DNA of 64,000 nucleotides, from IMG/VR virus record IMGVR_UViG_3300046519_000214, positions 16,554 through 80,553 of that record; one strand, given 5' to 3'. Position numbers and translations under genes: made by a program. Below, one piece after another: positions 7,238 to 60,044 of this stretch (its first letter is position 1; each line of letters opens with the position of its first letter). A model generated the notes under the pieces. The model made no database searches and was not told the origin of the DNA. It was given only the letters and a program-made list of their open reading frames with translations. The stretch is from a virus.

Positions 7238-9007
7238 ATGTATCGCAATGACTATTTGTCCGACTTCCGAGCCCAGCTGCGCCAGCGATTTGCGGAAGAT
7301 TCGATCAATATGTCGATGTCCGAATGGATCATCAAGAACACCCATCTGAGAAAGAAGCAGTTCAGTTTCGCTGGCTATGAGTTCCAGCAGCAGATCGTCG
7401 ACGACATGCATCCGGACCTCTGGACGATCAAATGCTCTCAGATCGGCCTGACCGAAGTTCAGCTCCGCAAGTTCGCGGGTTTCCTGGCCCGAACCACTGC
7501 CGTCAACGCGATCTTCTCTCTGCCGACCGACGTGATGTTCAAGCGCGTGTCTCAGACACGTTTCGGCCCTCTGATCAACGACGAGCCAGTCTTCAACATG
7601 GCATCTGTCGACAAGCCCGTGCGCTCAGTCGGCCTCTATCAGATCAACCAGTCATTCGGATTCTTCACCGGGGGCAAGGAATCGGATGCCACTTCGATCA
7701 ACGCCGACGCGCTTTTCCAGGACGAAATCGATCTCGCAGATCAGGAAATGCTGGCTCTCTACCAGTCACGTCTCCAGGGCTCTGACTACAAGATCACACA
7801 AAGCTTCTCGACCCCCACGTTCGAAGGATATGGGGTCCACGCGGGGTTTCAGACATCCGACCAGCACGAGTACGTCCTCAAGTGCGAAGGGTGCAACCAC
7901 TACAACATCCCGCAGTTCAACCCGAAATTCATCCACATCCCGGGGCTCTCCAGTGACATCAACGATCTCTCAGAAATCGACTCGGAACTTGCTGACAAGC
8001 TGGACCTTAGAGCCGGCTACGTTCGATGTGAGGCTTGTGGACGCCGTCTTAATACCTCTGATCCTTCGCTGCGGTCTTGGGTGCCTCGCTTTCCTGGGCG
8101 CCGCTCTCGCGGTTACAGGGTTAGCCCCTTCTGCGTTCACCGCATAGCGAACCCGGAATACATCGTCGACCAGCTCCTCAAGTACAAGAAGCGTGACGCG
8201 CTGCGCCGCTGGTACAACACGGTGCTGGGCGAAGCCTACAACGACGCCAGCGCTCGCCTGAGCGAAGTCGACATCCGCGCCGTCATGAAGGGGGAGGGCA
8301 GCGCCGACGTCAGCAGCCTCGAGCCCGTAATGATTGGCATCGACGCCGGTCTCACCTGCCACATCACGCTTGCCACCATTGGCCAGGCCCAGCCAGTCGT
8401 CTTTAGTTTCCGCCAGGTATCCGCGGACAATCTCTACGACGAGGTCAAAACGATCCTCGGCCGATACAACGTCGTGGGTGGGTGCATGGACCGCAATCCA
8501 TACACGCCGCTCGCGAACGAAATCCGTGACCTGTCGGCGGGTCGCATCCTCCCTGTCCAGTACGCCGGCCAACCAGGCGCCGCGGCGGTCACCTTCGTCA
8601 AGGACGAGCTCGATCAACTGTCACACCTGGTTGGCAACCGCACGACCATGCTCGACGCTGTGGCCGGCGCCGTCCGCAAGCGGAGGGTCTCGTTCTACGG
8701 CTACGGTCGCCTCGAACGCATCATCCTCGATCACCTGCAGGACATGGTGCGTATCGAGAACGAGCTGAACGAGAAAACCAAGGACGAGATCCCCGCCCGC
8801 TGGGCCAAGCTCACGGGCAATGATCACTTCTTCCACTCACTCGGTTACCTGCTCTACGCCATCCGCGTGAACACCGCGATCGACTACCGCGAGGAGGATC
8901 CTCGCACCCAGGTCACCGTCTCGAACGTAGTCGTTCCGGTTCAAAACGCATCACGACTGGGGCTGCAGCGTGGGGTCCGAACCCCCACATCTCTCGGAAT
9001 ACGCTAG
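7238..9007 (+). CDS. terminase large subunit, GpA-like
   Basis: A 589-residue DNA packaging motor. The ATPase part holds a Walker A-like segment KCSQIGLTE (residues 65-73), of the form seen in GpA-type terminases, and Walker B LFQDEID (Asp162, Glu163). Two Cys-x2-Cys pairs (216/219 and 264/267) look like a zinc ribbon between the domains. The nuclease part begins near VMIGIDAG (Asp369), with further acidic residues in MDRNPYT and GNDHFFH. It cuts concatemeric DNA and pumps it into proheads docked on the portal encoded next. The start lacks a clear ribosome binding site. No small subunit is obvious upstream on the same strand. Confidence 0.93.
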   Translation: MYRNDYLSDFRAQLRQRFAEDSINMSMSEWIIKNTHLRKKQFSFAGYEFQQQIVDDMHPDLWTIKCSQIGLTEVQLRKFAGFLARTTAVNAIFSLPTDVMFKRVSQTRFGPLINDEPVFNMASVDKPVRSVGLYQINQSFGFFTGGKESDATSINADALFQDEIDLADQEMLALYQSRLQGSDYKITQSFSTPTFEGYGVHAGFQTSDQHEYVLKCEGCNHYNIPQFNPKFIHIPGLSSDINDLSEIDSELADKLDLRAGYVRCEACGRRLNTSDPSLRSWVPRFPGRRSRGYRVSPFCVHRIANPEYIVDQLLKYKKRDALRRWYNTVLGEAYNDASARLSEVDIRAVMKGEGSADVSSLEPVMIGIDAGLTCHITLATIGQAQPVVFSFRQVSADNLYDEVKTILGRYNVVGGCMDRNPYTPLANEIRDLSAGRILPVQYAGQPGAAAVTFVKDELDQLSHLVGNRTTMLDAVAGAVRKRRVSFYGYGRLERIILDHLQDMVRIENELNEKTKDEIPARWAKLTGNDHFFHSLGYLLYAIRVNTAIDYREEDPRTQVTVSNVVVPVQNASRLGLQRGVRTPTSLGIR

Positions 9008-15438: not shown

Positions 15439-15507
15439 CGCAGCGTAATGAATCACAATTAATCATTGTGCTTCAATGCTTTAATTGAACTTCCTAAACT
15501 AAATTTC

Positions 15508-15544
15508 CATCTGTCAGTGAACCCCACGGGACCACTGACAGATG
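15508..15544 (+). promoter_or_regulatory. 12-bp perfect inverted repeat containing the protease start codon
   Basis: CATCTGTCAGTG (15508-15519) and CACTGACAGATG (15533-15544) are exactly complementary with a 13-base loop. The last three bases are the ATG of the protease/scaffold gene, and the only possible ribosome binding sequence (CGGGACC) lies in the loop. Just upstream CACAAT-TAATC-ATTGTG forms a second small hairpin. On a transcript reading through from the fibre genes, this would hide the start codon. Confidence 0.65.
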
Positions 15545-16651
15545 AAGCAAATCGCAAAAACACAGGCCATCAAGGATCTACTCACCGCTTCGGCGGGTGA
15601 CGTCGATGTTGATGGTCTGCGCGTCTACGAAGCGATTGCTTTCAACACCCTGCCGATCCGTAAGGAACACCCGCTCTACAAGGGTGCTCGCGCCGATCGC
15701 GCCTTCCTCCTCGAGATGGCCGGTGAGCTAAAGCGTGAATCTCGCCCCGTGCAGATCATGCACAACACCTCGCCGCTCCCAATTGGCCGCGTCTTCCATG
15801 GTGAAGTCGTAGACACGGGCGTCGAGTCCGAACTCCGCGTGCTCTTCTTCCTCGATCCGACCGCCAATGACCAGGCGACCAAGATCGAGGCTGGCAGCGT
15901 TGACCAGGTGTCTGTCTCTGTTCTCGCAAAGCAGATGCTTAATTCCAAGTCGGGTTTTGATTACTTCGGCCCCGACTCCTCGTCCGACAACATCTGGTCC
16001 GGAACGGACAACGACGGAAACCAGGTCGGCAAAAACGGCGTCTACGCCCGCATGGTCGGTCTCGACAAGTTTTTCGAGCTGTCCCTCGTCGGCCAGGGCG
16101 GCGCCCAAAATGCACGGATCGTTTCACGCGACCGGTCGCACTTCGGCCAGTCCCTCGAGCAGCTCGCTGCCTCTGGGATGGATCCGAACTCCCTCGTCCT
16201 GCTCGCAACCGCCTCCAAGGAAGATTCTATGGACCTCGCAACTCTCGTCGCCAACCTGACGACCACGACTGCTGACCTCACGAACGCCAAGCGCGACCTT
16301 ACGGACGCAACCGGCAAGGTCACCACGCTCGAAGCCACCATCACCGAACGTGACGCAACGATCGCTGATCTGAACACCCAGCTGACCGCTGCCAATGCTG
16401 TCGACGTCAACGCTGTCACCGCTGACCGCGATGCTGCCGTTGCTGCCCTCTCGGAAGTCGCCAAGAGCGTCCTGACGAAGGTTGGCAAGCTCAACGTCGA
16501 ACTGCCGAAGACGGTCACCGAGCTGTCCGCCCTGATCAACGAGCACTCCGCTGTTCTCGTGATCCAGGCAGGTGGCAAGGCCAGCGACAAGCCGACCGAC
16601 CTGGCGAACCAGCCGTCCCGCAACGCCGCTGCTTTCCGCTCGGCCCGCTAA
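15542..16651 (+). CDS. prohead protease with C-terminal scaffold domain
   Basis: A 369-residue protein. Residues 1-200 fit the prohead protease pattern: a His followed by a Pro-Ile-Gly strand turn (MHNTSPLPIGRVFHG, His74), then VDQVSVSVLAK with Ser124/126 as the likely nucleophile region. Residues about 235-300 are a coiled coil of Thr/Asp/Ala heptads (LTTTTADLTNAKRDLTDA), typical of scaffolds. It should template capsid assembly and then cleave scaffold and capsid subunits. It stands directly upstream of the decoration and capsid genes. The active site is inferred from pattern. Confidence 0.8.
   Translation: MKQIAKTQAIKDLLTASAGDVDVDGLRVYEAIAFNTLPIRKEHPLYKGARADRAFLLEMAGELKRESRPVQIMHNTSPLPIGRVFHGEVVDTGVESELRVLFFLDPTANDQATKIEAGSVDQVSVSVLAKQMLNSKSGFDYFGPDSSSDNIWSGTDNDGNQVGKNGVYARMVGLDKFFELSLVGQGGAQNARIVSRDRSHFGQSLEQLAASGMDPNSLVLLATASKEDSMDLATLVANLTTTTADLTNAKRDLTDATGKVTTLEATITERDATIADLNTQLTAANAVDVNAVTADRDAAVAALSEVAKSVLTKVGKLNVELPKTVTELSALINEHSAVLVIQAGGKASDKPTDLANQPSRNAAAFRSAR
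16229..16651 (+). CDS. nested scaffold protein (140 aa) from an internal start
   Basis: An in-frame ATG at 16229 is preceded by AAGGAAGA, a strong ribosome binding site with four bases of spacing, inside the protease gene. Initiation there would give MDLATLVANLTTTTADL and the whole coiled-coil domain without the protease. This mirrors lambda C/Nu3, where the scaffold is made separately from the same frame. It is a prediction from the start signal. Confidence 0.55.
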   Translation: MDLATLVANLTTTTADLTNAKRDLTDATGKVTTLEATITERDATIADLNTQLTAANAVDVNAVTADRDAAVAALSEVAKSVLTKVGKLNVELPKTVTELSALINEHSAVLVIQAGGKASDKPTDLANQPSRNAAAFRSAR

Positions 16652-21440: not shown

Positions 21441-21473
21441 TTCCCACCATTTTGAATAATCTTGTGCCTAGCA

Positions 21474-21501
21474 AATATAAGTATCTCTCCTCATTTATCA
21501 A
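21474..21501 (-). promoter_or_regulatory. sigma70-type promoter of the Arc-like gene
   Basis: On the minus strand TTGATA (21501-21496), a 16-base spacer, then TATATT (21479-21474), about 35 bases upstream of the ATG at 21440. The match is among the best in the window and its AT-rich surroundings differ from the flanking tail genes. Confidence 0.6.
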
Positions 21502-21540
21502 GCAGCAACACCTGTTCTGAACAATGAGGAACTCTCACCC

Positions 21541-22341
21541 ATGGCTGGCAACGCTAAGACCAAAAACTTCCTTCTTTCTACGGCGACCGTCATGATTGGC
21601 GCTCCTGACAAGCTGCACCAACTCAACCCTGCCGAACACTCGATCGGTCTCGTCAAGAACTTCCAGATGACCGCTGATCCGACGTTCGTCGAGCTCACGC
21701 AGGGCGTCAAGAACTCGGTCGTCATGTCCGTCAAGAACGGCGAAGGCCTGAAGTGCTCGATGGAAGTCTACGAGTACACGCTCCGCAACATGGCTTACGC
21801 AGCTGGTCTCGACGCCTCGGGCGTTGAGTTCGATTCGATCACCGACATCTGGATCGCATCCGGCGCCTACGCAACGGCTGGCAAGACGATCGAAGTTGGC
21901 ACCGACATCAGTGCGAAGCTGAGTGCCGGCGACTACATCTTCCTGCAGAACGGCCTGGACGATAAGGTCCACATTGCCAAGGTCGCCTCGTCTGCCTTCG
22001 CTGCGGCCAAGACCACGATCACCCTCGCCGCTGGCTACGAGCCATCTGCGACGGTCACGTTCCCGATCGGTACCCGTATCGGTAAGGTCAAGCGTATCGA
22101 CGTTGGTGGCACGGATGTGCAGCCGGAATTCGCGGTCAAGATCGTCGGCCTCCTACCGGTCGACAACGCGCCGTTCACGATCTACCTGCCGAAGGTCAAG
22201 ATCACGAAGGGTCTCGGTGTCGCGTTCCAGACGGACAACTTCGGCAACCTGCCGTTTGAGTTCACTCCGTACTCTGGTGTCGAGAGCGATCCTCTTTACG
22301 CTGAATACGGACCTGCAGCGGCCATCCTCTTCAACCGCTAA
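21541..22341 (+). CDS. major tail tube protein
   Basis: A 266-residue protein starting MAGNAKTKNFLLSTATVMIG. It has strong codon bias, beta-rich composition with a Gly/Val/Thr pattern, and stands between the tail terminator and the G/GT chaperone genes, exactly where the tail tube subunit is in siphoviruses. It should polymerise around the tape measure into the tail tube. A strong hairpin follows, again typical of an abundant structural protein. Confidence 0.85.
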   Translation: MAGNAKTKNFLLSTATVMIGAPDKLHQLNPAEHSIGLVKNFQMTADPTFVELTQGVKNSVVMSVKNGEGLKCSMEVYEYTLRNMAYAAGLDASGVEFDSITDIWIASGAYATAGKTIEVGTDISAKLSAGDYIFLQNGLDDKVHIAKVASSAFAAAKTTITLAAGYEPSATVTFPIGTRIGKVKRIDVGGTDVQPEFAVKIVGLLPVDNAPFTIYLPKVKITKGLGVAFQTDNFGNLPFEFTPYSGVESDPLYAEYGPAAAILFNR

Positions 22342-31996: not shown

Positions 31997-33034
31997 ATGC
32001 GTCCATCTGAAGACCTCATCAAGCAGGCAGTTGGCATGACGGGGGGCTTCAGACCCGCCGCTCGCTATCTGCGGGAGCAGGGCTACGACATCTCCGAGTC
32101 TGGCATCCGTGGGATGAAGAAACGCTGGGACGACAGCGACTTCGAGCTTGTCGACGAGCCAAAACCCTCGATCGACATCGAAGCCCTGGTCGAGCGCCGC
32201 ATCAACCAGTTCGCTCAGAAGCGGGAGAAATTCGAGCGGGAGAAAATCATCCCGGTTCGCGTCAAGCGCGACGGCCCAATCGGCATTGGCTTCTTCGGTG
32301 ACATGCACCTGGACGACGATGGCACAGACCTGGCCCAGGTGCTCGAGCACGTCAATCTCTTCGACGGCCGGAATGAAGGTCTATATGCGGCCAACGTCGG
32401 TGACGTCTTCAACAACTGGGCTGGCCGTCTGGCTCGTCTCTACTCGGAACAGAGCACCTCGGCGGACGAAGCCCTGGCACTGGTCGAGTACGTTCTCCAG
32501 AAGATCGACTGGCTCTATTACACGGACGGCAACCACGATCTGTGGGGGCAGGGTGGCGACATCCTGAAGCACATCCTCGCGAACAACGCTCTGGTCCACA
32601 AGTCGAACAAGGTTCGTCTGCAGCTGCAGCTGCCCAACGGACGTGACGTGAAGATCTATTCGGTCCACGGGTTCCGCGGTAAGTCCATGTGGTCGGAGTC
32701 CTATGGTGCTGCGAAGGCAGCTCAGCTCGACGGCGATCACCACGACATCTACGTCGCCGGCCACATCCACACCTCGGGTTATGCCCATGGCATGCGTCCA
32801 TCATCCTCGCAGATCTGGCACGCTCTCCAGGTCGCCTCGTACAAGAAGATTGACCGCTACGCCGAGGAGCTGAACCTCGACGCCAAGGATCTCTACAATT
32901 GCCCTGTGGCACTCATCGATCCCTACGCGACGAGCGAGATGAACTTCATCCGTTTCGAGTTTGATCCTGGTGAAGCAGCCGAGCGTCTGAAGTGGATGCA
33001 GAACCGCTGGCGCTCTGGAAAAACAGCTCATTAA
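31997..33034 (+). CDS. calcineurin-like metallophosphoesterase with N-terminal HTH-like domain
   Basis: A 345-residue enzyme. Residues 1-45 look like a helix-turn-helix (LIKQAVGMTGGFRPAARYL). From about residue 93 the metallophosphoesterase motifs appear in order: GDMHLDDD, NVGDVFNN, DGNHDLWG, VHGFRG and AGHIHTSG, covering the usual two-metal ligand set (Asp, His, Asp, Asn-His, His, His-x-His). It lies between the I-like and J-like genes with AGGA seven bases before the ATG. The substrate (nucleic acid, nucleotide or cell-wall phosphodiester) cannot be told. An enzyme of this type inside the tail-tip operon is unusual; it may be a late-expressed homing-type or virion-processing factor. Confidence 0.85.
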   Translation: MRPSEDLIKQAVGMTGGFRPAARYLREQGYDISESGIRGMKKRWDDSDFELVDEPKPSIDIEALVERRINQFAQKREKFEREKIIPVRVKRDGPIGIGFFGDMHLDDDGTDLAQVLEHVNLFDGRNEGLYAANVGDVFNNWAGRLARLYSEQSTSADEALALVEYVLQKIDWLYYTDGNHDLWGQGGDILKHILANNALVHKSNKVRLQLQLPNGRDVKIYSVHGFRGKSMWSESYGAAKAAQLDGDHHDIYVAGHIHTSGYAHGMRPSSSQIWHALQVASYKKIDRYAEELNLDAKDLYNCPVALIDPYATSEMNFIRFEFDPGEAAERLKWMQNRWRSGKTAH

Positions 33035-33075
33035 TCCCCACTTAAACCGGTACATAAGAAACGCCGGATAAGTCT

Positions 33076-36000
33076 ATGACAATTCAAGATATCTCCCTTC
33101 GGAAACTTAGCGGTTCGAAGGGAGGATCTAGTTCCAGTCCTAAACAGACAGCCGACTCCCTTTTCGCGACCGATGTGGTCGAAGCACTTTTGGGCATCAG
33201 CGAAGGCCCAATCAAAGGTCTGGAGAACGGCGCCAAATCCTACCTGGTCGGTGAGACCCAACTCCAGGACGACAGCGGCTCCAACAACTTCGAAAACTTC
33301 GAGCTCGTCGACTACAAAGGAAGCGAGCAGGGGGAGGAGATCTACTCCCGTCTTGGTGGCTTCGGCGCGTCCACCACGGTCAACACCGAGATGGCACCCA
33401 ACGTCGCTATCATCCGGCAGGGCACCCATACGGACATCGACTACATTGATTTGCGCTTCGTCATCAACCAGCTGGTGACGCAGAACGACAAGGGCACCTT
33501 TAATCACACCGGCCGCTGGCGCATCGAACACAAACTCGTCAGTGGCCAGTATTGGGAACCCGTCCGGACGCCGAGCGTCAATCCACTCCCGCCGCAAATC
33601 TCTGGCGACAGCTTCGACATCTATTATGGGACTGGTGGAACACCGGCAAAGATCAACGCCTCTCCAGGTGATCGGCCGACTTACTGGGCACCATCGCAGC
33701 CGATCACGACGGCCAACGCTGGCATCTGGTTCGACACCTCGAACAACTATAAGCCAAAGATCTGGGACGGATATAACTGGTATTTCCCAGCCGGTCTCTA
33801 CTTCGCGAGCAATCGCTGGACCTGGTCCGAGGCTTCCTCATGGGGAGGCGATCGGGCCACCAGAGCATTCGTCGGCCCGCAACTCGGCTTCGCTCCTGAG
33901 CAAGGCGACTACTGGCTGCACACGGGCGCCCAGCGTCCATACTTCTTCAACGGCTCGAGCTGGATCCAGGCGGGATCCTCGCTCCGTCCTGGTACCTTCG
34001 GTGAGAACGGGACCGGCGGTGACGTCGTCCTGACGAATGGTGAAATCGCGATCACCGCGAAGACCACTCAACCGTTCCCGAAAGAGCTCCGCATCCCGGT
34101 CGCTCGGGCCAACGAGCCCTACATGTTCCGCGTCACCAAGACCTCTCCGATCGATACGACGGAGAACTTCTTCAGCATCACCTGGGAGTCGTTCCAGGAG
34201 GTGACCGCGAAGAACTACAAGTTCCCGGGTCTCGCCTGCACCCAGGTGATCGCTCGAGCGAGCGAGCAGTTCTCGTCGATCCCGGATTTCTCAGGCATTT
34301 ACCTCGGCCGCATCGTTCGTGTTCCGTCCAACTACAACTCGACGACCCGTGTCTACACCGGGGTCTGGGACGGCACCTGGAAGCTCGCCTACACGAACAA
34401 CCCAGCCTTCGTCGCCAACGATGTTGTGCTGAACGACCGGTATGGCATGAATGCCTACTACCCGATCGTGATCGACAAGTGGGATGTCTATGACGCTGGC
34501 GTCTGGTGCGACACGCGAACGGCGTCTGGGAAACCCCGCTTCACCTTCAACGGTTTGATCTCGGACCCGAAGGGTGGCCGCGACACCATCAATTACATTT
34601 GCGGCATCTTCGCCGGCCGTTTCTTTGACGACGGCAATGGTCAGGGCGTCATCAAGATTGACCGCGATCTCAATCCCGCCGTGGCCTTCACGCCTGAGAA
34701 CGTTGTCGACGGACTTTTCACGTACTCGTTCACCGAGATCTCGACCCGCCACAACGATCTGACGGTCACGTTCACGAATGAGAACCTGGGCTGGCAGGAC
34801 GACCGCCGTCGTGTCTACGACCAGGACCATATTAATAAGTACGGTCGCATCCCGTTCAACTTCGAAGCGATCGCCTGCACCGACGAAGAAGAAGCGATCC
34901 GCCGCGCTCGGTATCATCTGATCACCGGCACGACCGAGACCATGATGGTCAACTTCAAGACCAACCGCATGGGTCTCTATCTCACGCCGTATGATGTTAT
35001 CACCGTCGCGGATGAGGACATGGAAGCTGGCCTCAGCGGACGTGTGAAGAGTGTGACCGGCAAGCGGACGATCAATCTCCGCGACCCACTCTTCCTCGAA
35101 CCTGGCTACTCCTACCAGGTGGGCTTCCAGCGGATCAGCGAGGCGACTGGCGACTTCGTGATGGACAGCCGCGAGCTGACCAATGTCACGGGCGCTGTGA
35201 CCGCTCTGACGACCACTGTGGACTTGCCGGATCTTCCGGACGACGCCGTCTTCACCATCTCCCAGATGAATGGTGATGTGGCACCGCTCGCGTTCCGCGT
35301 CATGTCGATCACGGAAGTGGACGGCGATCCGGACAACGTCGAAATCCAGGCCATGCAGATGAACCGAGCCAAGTGGCTCTACGTCGACGGCTACATTGGT
35401 TCGATCGATGACCTGGATAAGTACGTCCTAGATCAGAAGAAGAAGCCCGAACCTATCACGGATCTGAAGGTGAGGGCGACCAGCCGCTCCGTTGGCGCCC
35501 GCAAGGTCACGACACTCACCCTGGCCTGGAACCCGAGCCCGACGAAGACCGTCACCAAATACAAGATCTCTGGCTCGCGAGACAACGGCCCAATCGCGCT
35601 GCTTGGCGAAGTCCCGGTCCCCCAGTTTGAGTGGGACGACATTCCGGCCGGCGAATATTATTTCGAGGTGACGGCTGTCGACGTGAACGGCTACGCTTCT
35701 GCAGCGGCCATTATCGAGCACCGCCTGATTGGCGACACCCGCGTGGTAGACGGGATCGCCGGTCTCCGGATGATCGACGAGCCGACCGAGACGGACTTCG
35801 AAAGCCGTTCGCCGCTCTTCCAATGGGGTGCATCGAAGGACGACTATTTCAAGCAGTACATCATGCAGATCCGCGATCTGAGCGATCTCGTGATCCGCGA
35901 GGAAATCCTCGACCGCACGTGGTACACCTACGAGTACACGGTCAATATGAACGACGGCGGTGGAACGCCTCGTCGTGCCTTCAAGATCGCCATCGCGACC

Positions 36001-38662: not shown

Positions 38663-39032
38663 TCTGAAGAAGGATCTGACTCCGATCCGCGCCGCGGCGA
38701 TCGCCAAGATCGATGCTGCAGCCGAGCTCGCACGTGGAAGGTACATCACGCTCGGCGCCGGTCAGGCCATGACCTACCTGGAGAAGGAACGCCAAGCAGA
38801 GACGGTTTGCGCGGACCCGAACATAAACCCGAACCTGGTCCGCCTAGTGGCGATCGACGCTGAGCGATACAACGTCACGCTCCTGGACGCCGCGGCTGTC
38901 ATTCTCACTATGGCCGAGAGCTGGCGTGTCGTCGGACCTATGATCGAAGACAAACGCATGGTGGCCAAGGATCTTGTGGCCGCAGCGACAACACCAGCCG
39001 CAATCGAAGCAGCAACGGAGATAGCCTGGTGA
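38652..39032 (+). CDS. helical hypothetical protein (126 aa)
   Basis: A 126-residue, Ala-rich and almost fully helical protein (MKLNLKKDLTPIRAAAIAKI). It overlaps the gene before by 11 bases and the RHH-like gene after by four (GTGA). Similar short helical proteins follow fibre genes in other phages, where they sometimes act as assembly factors; here this is a guess. Confidence 0.55.
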   Translation: MKLNLKKDLTPIRAAAIAKIDAAAELARGRYITLGAGQAMTYLEKERQAETVCADPNINPNLVRLVAIDAERYNVTLLDAAAVILTMAESWRVVGPMIEDKRMVAKDLVAAATTPAAIEAATEIAW

Positions 39033-39190
39033 GCAAGACCCGAAACAAAGGCATCATCGCGTATGGCACGGACGAGGATCGCGAGAAGCTCGCGGTCCTG
39101 GCCGACACCTATGGACTGTCCGGAAGCGAGTTTCTGATTAAGATGATCAGGGAAAAATTTGAACAACTATTCGGTGCATCGGTTCCATAA
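39029..39190 (+). CDS. small ribbon-helix-helix-like protein (53 aa), GTG start
   Basis: A 53-residue protein starting (M)SKTRNKGIIAYGTDEDRE from a GTG that overlaps the preceding TGA (GTGA). The pattern strand-helix-turn-helix, with TDEDREKLAVLADTYGLSGS and EFLIKMIREKF, fits CopG-type ribbon-helix-helix proteins. It ends just before a set of direct repeats that lies in front of the lysis genes, so autoregulation or control of lysis timing is plausible. DNA binding is inferred from the pattern only. Confidence 0.6.
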   Translation: MSKTRNKGIIAYGTDEDREKLAVLADTYGLSGSEFLIKMIREKFEQLFGASVP

Positions 39191-39201
39191 CAGAACCTAT
39201 G

Positions 39202-39272
39202 CGATTATCCGTCATAAGGTTTAAGCCTTTCCGATTATCCGTTATAAGGTTTCGCCCAGCCCTTATAACCTT
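39202..39272. repeat. two 21-base direct repeats plus an inverted half copy
   Basis: CGATTATCCGTCATAAGGTT at 39202-39221 and CGATTATCCGTTATAAGGTT at 39232-39251 differ by one base and are 30 bases apart, about three helical turns. CCTTATAACCTT at 39261-39272 is an inverted partial copy (AAGGTTATAAGG). They fill the gap between the RHH-like gene and the lysis cassette and look like operator sites for a dimeric repressor. Confidence 0.65.
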
Positions 39273-39332
39273 CAAACTGAACCGTTCTGAGTCAACCGGA
39301 ACGGGAATCCTCCAGCCACTGTAACCATATTT

Positions 39333-39356
39333 ACGGGAACCAATTGGAGTTCCCGT
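39333..39356 (+). promoter_or_regulatory. 8-bp hairpin directly before the first lysis gene
   Basis: ACGGGAAC (39333-39340) and GTTCCCGT (39349-39356) pair perfectly; the ATG of the lysis gene follows at 39357. The likely ribosome binding site TTGGAG lies in the loop and overlaps the right arm by one base, so folding would hinder initiation until needed. Confidence 0.55.
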
Positions 39357-39686
39357 ATGCCCCTCACCGACGCTTTCACCCACCGGCTTGACGGCCTTGA
39401 ATCGGCAGTCCGGCAGATGTCTGATCGCCTCGTTGCAATGGCGGAGTTTATGGAGCGCCTGGTCGTGCTCGAGGAGCGTAACAGCTTCGTCTCGACCCAG
39501 GTGAAGGAAGTGAAGGATGGCTTCAAGGAGGCCATTGGGGAACTCAAAGCCCAACACACGGACCTCGAGAAAAAGTACACGGCCTTGAATGAGAAGGTCG
39601 TCCGCCTGGTGACGCTTTGCTCCGTTGCCAGTGCTGTGATCTCCGCTGTTGGCCCGCTGCTCCTCAAGAAGTTCGTGGGGCTCTGA
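39357..39686 (+). CDS. XhlA-like lysis protein / holin component (109 aa)
   Basis: A 109-residue protein: a coiled-coil cytoplasmic part (residues about 10-80, LDGLESAVRQMSDRLVAM and LKAQHTDLEKKYTALNEKV) and one C-terminal membrane helix (VTLCSVASAVISAVGPLLL). This is the layout of XhlA-type haemolysin/holin partners. It opens the lysis cassette and shares a base with the next gene (TGATG). Confidence 0.7.
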   Translation: MPLTDAFTHRLDGLESAVRQMSDRLVAMAEFMERLVVLEERNSFVSTQVKEVKDGFKEAIGELKAQHTDLEKKYTALNEKVVRLVTLCSVASAVISAVGPLLLKKFVGL

Positions 39687-39934
39687 TGCCGAAGCTGCAC
39701 CCCGACTGGTGGACGATTCTGCGTCACTCCTGGTCGCTGATGTGCGTCTACTTCTTCCTGTTCCTCGTCGTGCTTGAGCCGATCTGCGACACGCTGCTGT
39801 CCATGATGGCTGGCTCGTCGCTTCCGCCGGCCGTCCGACTTGGCTTCTCCATCCTGGACGGCCTGGTCGGCCTCGGCGCGGTCTACGGACGCCTCATCCC
39901 CCAGAAGAAAATCTCAGGAGCCAAGAATGGCTAA
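39686..39934 (+). CDS. holin (82 aa)
   Basis: An 82-residue protein starting MPKLHPDWWTILRHSWSL with two hydrophobic segments (LMCVYFFLFLVVLEPICD; LGFSILDGLVGLGAVYG) and a basic, polar C-terminus. Size, topology and position just upstream of the endolysin make it the probable holin or pinholin that depolarises the membrane at lysis time. It overlaps the endolysin start by eight bases. Confidence 0.72.
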   Translation: MPKLHPDWWTILRHSWSLMCVYFFLFLVVLEPICDTLLSMMAGSSLPPAVRLGFSILDGLVGLGAVYGRLIPQKKISGAKNG

Positions 39935-40418
39935 GAAGACGATCATCGGCACGATCGCCAGTGCTGCTGTTGCGATCGGCGTCTCCATTGCTGAACCGGC
40001 GGAAGGTTATGTCGGCTACGTCTACCGCGATGCGGTCGGCGTGCTGACCTACTGCATGGGAGAAACTGAAAATGCGAAGTCCATGCAGGGCCGGAAGTTT
40101 TCCAGGCAAGAGTGTCATGACCTGCTGGTTAAGCGCATGGCCCACTACGATCAAGGTAACGCGGCATGCGTCAAGAACTGGGACGCCCTCCCCGTCGAGA
40201 CTCGAGGAGCCTTCGACAGCTTCAGCTACAACATCGGAGTCGGGGGCTTCTGTGGCTCGAGCTCGGCCCGCTATCTTCGCACCGGAAACATCAAAGCCGC
40301 CTGCGAAGGAATGCTGGCCTGGAACAAGGGGACAGTGAACGGCAAGAAGGTCGTGCTCCCGGGCTTGGCGAAGCGCAGAGCGACGGAGCGGAACATGTGC
40401 ATGCGGGGAGTGGAATGA
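39927..40418 (+). CDS. SAR endolysin, T4-lysozyme type (GH24)
   Basis: A 163-residue muramidase. Residues 4-22 are a weakly hydrophobic, Ala/Gly-rich signal-anchor-release segment (TIIGTIASAAVAIGVSIA). The catalytic triad pattern Glu-x8-Asp-x5-Thr is exact (Glu26, Asp35, Thr41 in EGYVGYVYRDAVGVLTYC). SAR endolysins are exported by the host Sec system, stay tethered and inactive, and become active when the membrane is depolarised. It degrades peptidoglycan. The stop is coupled to the i-spanin start (ATGA). Confidence 0.92.
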   Translation: MAKKTIIGTIASAAVAIGVSIAEPAEGYVGYVYRDAVGVLTYCMGETENAKSMQGRKFSRQECHDLLVKRMAHYDQGNAACVKNWDALPVETRGAFDSFSYNIGVGGFCGSSSARYLRTGNIKAACEGMLAWNKGTVNGKKVVLPGLAKRRATERNMCMRGVE

Positions 40419-40771
40419 TTCCTCTCACGCTCCTCGAGCCGTTAGCAAAACCGGTCCTGATCTGTGCCGTGGCAGCAGGCCTGGTCTTTGGCGGATACTT
40501 CTACGGACAGCACGTCGCGAACGAGAGGCACGAAGCGGCCGAGCTCGCCAAGTGGGTGAAGGACATCAACCTCGGAATAGCGATCGACTCTGCTGACCGC
40601 GTGAAGCGGGAACAGGATCAGAGTCGGATTACAGAATTGCAGAAGGAGCTGGCGAATGCTCGCGCCAAGATTAAGAAGCCTGACGATACCTGCTTTGACA
40701 GCGATGATGTTGAGCAGCTGTGGAACATCTGGCCTCACGGACAGAGCAAACCTGCCTCTCCTGCCCGCTGA
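40415..40771 (+). CDS. i-spanin, Rz-like (118 aa)
   Basis: A 118-residue protein with one N-terminal membrane anchor (PVLICAVAAGLVFGGYFYG) and a periplasmic coiled coil (RVKREQDQSRITELQKELANARAKI). It is the inner-membrane half of the spanin complex that disrupts the outer membrane at the end of lysis. The o-spanin gene overlaps it in another frame. Confidence 0.85.
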   Translation: MIPLTLLEPLAKPVLICAVAAGLVFGGYFYGQHVANERHEAAELAKWVKDINLGIAIDSADRVKREQDQSRITELQKELANARAKIKKPDDTCFDSDDVEQLWNIWPHGQSKPASPAR

Positions 40772-40955
40772 CATCCGGACCTGTTTCGACGAGACAGTGC
40801 CTCCTCCCGAGCGTGGCAAGCGGATGTCGAAGGTGCAGGTGTACGACAAGTTCGGGGAGTTCATCACCCTGGACGAAAAGAAGTCGTCCTGTGGTCGACG
40901 ACTGATCGAGAGAGATGACGCTCTACGGACAGGACAAATAAAAAAGGCCCCGTGA
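40656..40955 (+). CDS. o-spanin lipoprotein, Rz1-like (99 aa)
   Basis: A 99-residue protein whose first 116 bases lie inside the i-spanin gene in another frame. A lipoprotein signal (IPALTAMMLSSC) puts the lipidated Cys at residue 22, giving an outer-membrane-anchored mature protein with a PPP segment, typical of o-spanins. It ends just before the bidirectional terminator. Together with the i-spanin it fuses inner and outer membranes. Confidence 0.82.
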   Translation: MLAPRLRSLTIPALTAMMLSSCGTSGLTDRANLPLLPADIRTCFDETVPPPERGKRMSKVQVYDKFGEFITLDEKKSSCGRRLIERDDALRTGQIKKAP

Positions 40956-40966
40956 GGGGCCTTTTT
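40941..40966. terminator. bidirectional terminator between lysis and nucleotide genes
   Basis: AAAAAGGCCCC-GTGA-GGGGCCTTTTT: an 11-base-pair symmetrical stem with a T run on both strands. It closes the rightward lysis operon and the leftward operon that ends with the reductase alpha subunit (stop at 40968-40970). Confidence 0.93.
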
Positions 40967-59622: not shown

Positions 59623-59820
59623 CTTTGGTTTTACCTCGGGCTCGAGGTCTAACTCAGGTTCTGTGGGATCCGGCGCATCCGCCGCTATCTCTATTCGTTT
59701 TCCGAGATCCTGGATCTCTTGATACTTGGTTGGGTTCCAGACACCGGCTGCATTAACTTCCTTGAGAAGTTGATCGCGTCGGGCCGAGAGTTTTTCCTTT
59801 TCGCTCATCATTCCTGACAT
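59611..59820 (-). CDS. small acidic/basic hypothetical protein (69 aa)
   Basis: A 69-residue protein starting MSGMMSEKEKLSARRDQLLK: a charged helix, then an acidic Pro/Glu/Asp-rich segment (DPTEPELDLEPEVKPKKAR). An ATG at 59811 is an alternative start. It ends inside a terminator. Function unknown. Confidence 0.6.
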   Translation of the reverse strand: MSGMMSEKEKLSARRDQLLKEVNAAGVWNPTKYQEIQDLGKRIEIAADAPDPTEPELDLEPEVKPKKAR

Positions 59821-59828
59821 ATGGGAAC

Positions 59829-60044
59829 TCAGTTCCAGCTCTTCAACTCCCCGACATTAATGCCGAGAGTTGCCGCCTGTTTGTCCCAAAACCGTCTGAG
59901 TTTGAGCCGGATGGACACCGGCTCCATCTCATTGCACTTGGTAAGCAAGGAGCCCTTCATCAGGAGCTCCTTTTGCCACCCCGGAGCCAGGTTGAAATCG
60001 CGAACGATACGAAAGTATTCCTCGTGGCTCTTAATTACGGACAT
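59829..60044 (-). CDS. small hypothetical protein (71 aa)
   Basis: A 71-residue protein starting MSVIKSHEEYFRIVRDFNLA with GGAGG closely upstream of the ATG. Helical and basic, no motif recognised. It overlaps the end of the helix-turn-helix gene by 14 bases, so the two are co-translated. Confidence 0.62.
   Translation of the reverse strand: MSVIKSHEEYFRIVRDFNLAPGWQKELLMKGSLLTKCNEMEPVSIRLKLRRFWDKQAATLGINVGELKSWN

Follow-up and report, generated by a model that had tools for sequence, protein, structure and literature searches.

Start-codon hairpins and a promoter-like motif on their 5' arms at the first lysis gene and a head-region gene of a Seuss-related siphophage

The lysis cassette and the region upstream of it

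The stretch of DNA analyzed here, referred to as the window, is 64 kb in length and is part of an 80,553-base IMG/VR virus record. The DNA polymerase of the window phage has 50% identity to that of Caulobacter phage Seuss and about 40% identity to that of Achromobacter phage JWF. On the basis of these identities, the window phage is placed in a group of roughly 80-kb siphophages. Relatives of one of its genes, the 369-aa head-region gene described below, are also found in one Mesorhizobium genome and in one alphaproteobacterial MAG. The late genes are located on the + strand and extend from the terminase (position 7238) to a bidirectional terminator (40941–40966), identified by a terminator scan, at the end of the late operon.

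The lysis cassette (39357–40955, + strand) is composed of two small holin-like genes, a phage lysozyme, and spanins. The first lysis gene (39357–39686) is an ORF for a 109-aa coiled-coil protein with a C-terminal hydrophobic segment and is a putative holin/antiholin. Its position agrees with that of the annotated holin/antiholin genes of Caulobacter phage Seuss; no sequence similarity was found between its product and the first of the Seuss pair. Its Shine-Dalgarno (SD) sequence, TTGGAG (39344–39349), lies 7 nucleotides ahead of the ATG. The second holin-like gene (39686–39934) is 82 aa in length and matches the PHROG 1356 holin with an E-value of 0.004. It is followed by the endolysin (39927–40418, 163 aa; Pfam Phage_lysozyme, 1.8e-24) and the i-spanin (40415–40771; Rz-like PHROGs 1152 and 1327). 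An embedded o-spanin-like gene (40656–40955) is assigned by its position and a lipobox-like start.

A 53-aa gene (39029–39190, + strand) precedes the cassette, with a GTG start that overlaps the upstream stop codon. The first-pass annotation described its product as ribbon-helix-helix (RHH)-like; the ORF itself is confirmed here. An AF2 model, constructed from 7 sequences, has two helices after an N-terminal extended stretch (mean pLDDT 79). The best Foldseek matches of the model are mostly RHH proteins (Arc, TacA, AtaR, PutA, omega, and AmrZ), all with E > 0.4; for this very short chain, no match was found at E ≤ 0.001. A NikA-like Pfam match falls under the cutoff. Judging from the model, the protein is probably a ribbon-helix-helix protein. 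In every relative examined the gene precedes the lysis genes, in several directly next to them, and its identity is as low as 41% in Seuss. It is a conserved neighbor of the lysis cassette.

Between the RHH gene and the cassette are two direct repeats (39196–39222 and 39226–39252). Each is 27 nucleotides in length; they are 89% alike and are spaced 30 nucleotides from start to start. They share a 21-nucleotide core, CGATTATCCGTYATAAGGTTT, with 20 of 21 nucleotides identical between the copies and 0 chance matches expected in the window. The second repeat and an inverted half site form a 9-bp inverted repeat (39241–39269, arms 39241–39249 and 39261–39269), which folds with −8.6 kcal/mol (z = −1.8) and is species-specific. 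Both the repeats and the half site had been reported in the first-pass annotation, and both are present and, in the case of the repeats, non-random. The adjacent 30-mers are identical at 24 of 30 positions. They are the two units of a tandem duplication (39196–39252), likewise species-specific, and the 30-base spacing simply reflects the length of one unit.

Neither repeat is present in L007 or L020, two relatives with 88% and 72% lysis-gene identity, respectively, though both relatives retain the RHH gene, the hairpin described below, and the lysis genes. In these relatives the RHH and lysis genes are separated by a shorter interval or by one with an antisense ORF inserted. The insert, in L020 (4570–4960), carries an ORF of about 104 aa in antisense orientation whose start resembles a signal peptide. 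Apart from one match in an unrelated coding region (L110), the repeat core is limited, among 2.9 million viral contigs, to near-identical ones. That match is within a gene of a lower-GC phage and was taken as chance. Because the repeats are missing from L007 and L020 and confined to near-identical contigs, they are read as a recent local duplication and not as a conserved operator, and they are probably not part of a conserved device. Two other roles for the repeats were considered and rejected. Against promoters of a phage RNA polymerase, they are unique in the 80.5-kb record, without copies elsewhere; as a conserved RHH operator they would be expected in relatives that keep the RHH gene, and these lack them.

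Start-codon hairpins and the motif on their 5' arms

The first lysis gene begins in a hairpin (39332–39357, + strand) identified by folding. It is composed of two 9-nucleotide arms (39332–39340 and 39349–39357) that form 9 perfect pairs, and an 8-nucleotide loop (39341–39348), CAATTGGA. The last pair includes the A of the ATG at 39357. The energy is −13.8 kcal/mol (z = −3.6). The hairpin had been described as having eight base pairs with the ribosome binding site in the loop; its end at the ATG stands, the stem has nine pairs, and GGAG lies mostly, not wholly, within the loop. An alternative fold of the SD with 39301–39315 (ACGGGAATCCTCCAG) was rejected, as the complement is missing in L007 and L020.

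The hairpin is identical in L007 and has one G-U pair in L020. In a relative with 47% identity (L022/L025), its place is taken by a larger hairpin (z = −5.5), unrelated in sequence, that also terminates at the ATG. The lysis-gene hairpin of a 40% relative (L024) is weak, with a z of 0.1 from a folded slice that lacks part of the 5' arm. Ahead of the lysis genes of the group-2 phages, a sister clade, a start hairpin is not clearly present.

A second start-codon hairpin (15508–15544, + strand) was found by a perfect-stem search. It has 12 bp and holds the ATG (15542) of the 369-aa head-region gene (15542–16651, + strand). This gene lies between the portal and capsid genes, belongs to PHROG 37797 (unknown function), and is prohead protease/scaffold-like by position only. 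The head-gene hairpin (z = −6.5) is stronger than the lysis-gene hairpin and is found in both clades of relatives. Over 14 distinct sequences, the ten outer pairs give 122 of 140 cells with standard pairs, compared with 18–61 when the arms are slid, and 8 of the 10 outer pairs show two or more standard pair types. The pairs were counted in a hand-set register, since a MAFFT alignment of both clades misaligned the arms. The start codon takes part in the change: AUG/CAU in one clade is GUG/CAC in the second. The covariation is strongest between the two clades and represents few independent events. In G008, the outer stem of the head gene is rebuilt from bases further upstream, and the CCATCT box is unpaired. 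The head genes of Seuss, Lumi, JWF, KB12-38, and fJoAci04 showed no comparable hairpin. Rfam covariance models had no match to the lysis or head-gene hairpin at E ≤ 1.

Perfect stems of at least 9 bp that end at −1 to +2 of a start codon occur at 2 of 37 late-strand starts, compared with 0.05 expected. The 37 starts were listed by hand, and the expectation was taken from the density of such stems. This strict definition was used in place of a loose RNAfold survey of start hairpins, which gave too many false positives.

The motif CCAT[AC]T-N6-GAACC has 2 matches in the window, compared with 0.05 expected, and both are in or overlap the 5' arms of the two hairpins. G002 and G008 carry it at these two genes as well. 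At the lysis gene, CCATAT (39325–39330, + strand) is the predicted −10 of a local promoter, and CCATAT-N6-GAA precedes the same gene in five relatives. The predicted transcription start would be the G of GAACC at 39337, the seventh base past the −10, within the 5' arm. At the head gene, a promoter-like site (15485–15512, + strand) reads TTGAA-N17-CCATCT with equal spacing in five relatives. Counted from its −10, the predicted start is the G of GAACC at 15519, also in the 5' arm. The terminase has TTGCA-N17-CCATAT in four of five relatives. The general form TTG[AC]A-N17-YYATMT has 2–4 matches per group-1 genome, most of them directly ahead of TerL, the head gene, or the J-like tail gene.

The Sinorhizobium meliloti sigma70, or alphaproteobacterial, consensus is CTTGAC-N17-CTATAT (PMC2573895). 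In sequence, the motif resembles the −10/+1 region of a promoter of this kind. A clear −35 was not found for the lysis promoter in G000, G002, or G008, and a generic promoter scan found no lysis promoter. A further conserved hairpin or palindrome (39282–39304, + strand), with 8 bp and a 7-nucleotide loop, is centered at about −44 from the predicted +1. It is kept in three species, G000, G002, and G008, with C-G/U-A and U-G/U-A changes and an unchanged distance to the −10, and could mark an activator site that replaces the −35. This palindrome, the hairpin at 15508–15544, and the motif on both 5' arms are features beyond those of the first-pass annotation.

A conserved promoter-like site, TTG[AC]A-N17-CCATAT, is also found on the − strand (59819–59846) just ahead of a short early-strand ORF. 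Its spacer contains a palindrome, GGAAC-TGA-GTTCC in the window and GGAGC-TGA-GCTCC in G008.

Start hairpins are present at other genes as well. The Holliday-junction resolvase of the group-2 phages (PHROG 843, RecU-like) has a start hairpin of 12–13 bp with CCATAT as its loop, and its arms change in compensation between phages. These hairpins are located on the − strand at G005:C1:69257, G007:C1:68024, and G004:C1:67392, the records behind L011, L014, and L010. Local transcripts of the resolvase would be nearly leaderless. The J-like tail gene has a short hairpin (33030–33080) with its 5' arm just ahead of the predicted start of a promoter-like CCACTT (−10) site; in G003, that place is occupied by CCATAT and the arm is different. 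Upstream of the 266-aa major-tail-like gene (21541), in the region 21455–21540, a conserved TCCTCATTTATCAAG pairs with the SD ATGAGGA across a loop of about 28 nucleotides. A local transcript would probably keep this anti-SD hairpin, and therefore not every ribosome-site hairpin here obeys a local-only rule. In three group-2 records, a terminator-like hairpin and T run end at the ATG of a primase-like gene of about 803 aa (− strand; G004:C1:60288, G007:C1:61520, and G005:C1:62740).

Predicted effect of a local start and alternative explanations

The cost of opening the start site was calculated for read-through and locally started transcripts. A local start at GAACC would remove most of the 5' arm, and the calculated opening cost falls. 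It is 13.1 kcal/mol on read-through and 3.1 with a local start at the lysis gene, and 22.9 and 3.9 kcal/mol, respectively, at the head gene. Over five relatives each, the gain ranges from 5.8 to 19.4 for the lysis gene and from 6.8 to 19.2 for the head gene. The background gain in G000 has a median of 0.3 and reaches 5.8 at its 95th percentile; the corresponding percentile in G008, 7.2, exceeds that phage's lysis-gene gain of 5.8. The gains of the J-like tail gene (3.3–5.8) are within the upper background. When the assumed start is slid along the sequence, in most cases the cost drops on reaching the predicted +1 or a position shortly upstream of it. For the lysis gene, the drop is earlier in G009 and more gradual in G008. 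In G009, the −10 region is within a long hairpin and the +1 is in its 3' arm.

The explanation we favor, and consider reasonably probable, is that the lysis hairpin is a lock on the start site that carries its own promoter. A sigma70-type promoter would have its −10 (39325–39330) just before the 5' arm and its start at about 39337, inside the arm. Transcripts that read through from the tail genes and the RHH gene would keep both arms and fold into the hairpin, hiding the ribosome site and AUG. The terminator scan found no terminator-like site on the + strand between the RHH and lysis genes. Locally started transcripts would be without most of the 5' arm, and the first lysis gene would be translated from them. 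Synthesis of the lysis proteins would then depend solely on firing of the local promoter, regardless of read-through. A point against this account is that the preceding genes on this strand are late as well, unlike the early transcripts that carry T4 e. The same design would apply to the 369-aa head-region gene, the resolvase of the sister group, and, more weakly, the J-like tail gene.

One alternative retains the hairpin and gives it a different use: every transcript would carry it as a translational operator switched in trans, as with MS2 coat protein and T4 RegA, or it would be a constitutive damper that holds lysis-protein synthesis at a low rate. The conservation of a hairpin over the SD and AUG is consistent with it. 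So is the anti-SD hairpin at 21541, which local transcripts probably keep, and some hairpins here may act in this manner. Unlike a protein-bound operator, however, the arms and loops are wholly different between relatives and between genes. The fixed place of a −10-like motif on the 5' arm is also left unexplained, and for the lysis gene we regard this alternative as unlikely.

The inverted repeats could instead be DNA operators for a dimeric regulator acting on the promoters, with the RNA hairpin incidental. They do overlap the predicted promoters, and the palindrome at 39282–39304 has an activator-like position at −44. Half-site sequence and spacing vary, however, and the stems contain bulges and G-U pairs. 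The arms are unrelated between genes of one phage. Their 3' arms repeatedly stop at the start codon, a placement needless for a DNA site. This makes the DNA-level explanation quite unlikely.

The first-pass annotation had combined two layers into a lysis timer, with the RHH protein on the 30-bp repeats controlling transcription and the hairpin controlling translation. In relatives that keep the lysis genes, the comparison which that annotation had itself proposed, the hairpin survives and the repeats fail. Structure-controlled translation is supported, the hairpin being kept in the 88% and 72% relatives and replaced in the 47% relative. The protein-controlled layer is not. The RHH-like fold, the constancy of the gene as a neighbor of the cassette, and the non-random repeats speak for it. 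Against it, the relatives without repeats have RHH proteins 87% and 74% identical to that of the window, with a nearly invariant predicted DNA-reading strand, and the repeats are a 30-bp tandem duplication found in near-identical contigs only. The timer as a whole is therefore very unlikely.

Chance co-occurrence of strong stems near starts with a −10-like sequence is barely credible: phage genomes are rich in hairpins and the loose survey gave many, but two were found against 0.05 expected for start stems and motif alike, and the conservation includes compensatory change.

Beyond the lysis gene, the favored start-site lock suggests a broader proposal, which is tentative and to which we give somewhat less than even weight. 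A clade of alphaproteobacterial siphophages of about 80 kb may have independently evolved a genome-wide rule by which only local transcripts are translated. The promoters that drive lysis, head assembly, one tail gene, and the resolvase would be placed within start-codon hairpins, where the AUG can find its antisense in the CAT of the −10. Translation would be uncoupled from the operon. The promoters would be of the host sigma70 type, and the rule would be convergent with that of T4 e, soc, and 49. If true, hairpin gating with an embedded promoter is a general solution of unrelated phages for lysis, head, and Holliday-junction resolvase genes and not a peculiarity of T4. It would also provide a rule that can be searched in any phage, namely a start-codon hairpin whose 5' arm bears a −10 box, and it would account for a late operon that extends into the lysis cassette without causing premature lysis. 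Such hairpins were not found described for Seuss-like phages in the literature, with limited coverage of subscription journals.

Comparison with known systems

Gene 49 of phage T4 (endonuclease VII) encodes a Holliday-junction resolvase. In T4 e, soc, 49, and I-TevI, a hairpin silences upstream transcripts while local ones are translated (PMC3014915, PMC2988022). The hairpin of gene e hides the SD and AUG on long upstream transcripts, a local promoter lies in its 5' strand, which local transcripts therefore lack, and the arrangement has been predicted in related phages (PMC3014915). The earlier statement that no standard lysis module resembles the one described here was partly wrong, as gene e is a precedent for hairpin-gated lysis (PMC3014915).

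The likeness to gene e consists of a lysis gene with a hairpin over the SD and AUG. A promoter within the hairpin is a prediction here, made from the conserved −10-like motif, a predicted +1 in the arm, and the matching drop in opening cost, with a weak −35 at the lysis gene. Computed folding gives a stable hairpin over the SD and AUG on read-through transcripts, and the arrangement is conserved in related phages for both hairpins. The differences are several. Gene e has TATAAATA late promoters read by gp55, whereas the sites found here are the sigma70-like CCATAT and TTGAA-N17-CCATMT and not promoters of the T4 type. Gene e is silenced on early transcripts, while the genes upstream here are late structural genes. 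The gene gated in T4 is an endolysin, the putatively gated gene here is holin-like, and the phages are unrelated. In function, soc falls in one class with the 369-aa gene (head), and 49 in one class with the group-2 resolvase (Holliday-junction resolution) (PMC3014915, PMC2988022). Compared with soc, 49, and I-TevI, the start codon itself is in the stem here, often paired with the CAT of the −10 box. The likeness is one of logic and not of shown homology between genes or hairpins.

The MS2 replicase operator hairpin is also a structure over the SD and AUG and acts in trans through a bound protein. T4 RegA sites likewise place a protein site over the SD and AUG, in trans (PMC3014915). Those systems bind protein, whereas no conserved bound sequence was seen here.

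At the start of the lambda S holin gene, RNA structure affects the timing of lysis and partitions two start codons. The lysis gene described here has one start and an apparent embedded promoter, and the likeness is limited to RNA structure at the start of a holin or holin-like gene. By analogy, the arrangement in the window phage would function like that of T4, and it belongs to the T4 arrangement neither by descent nor by promoter type.
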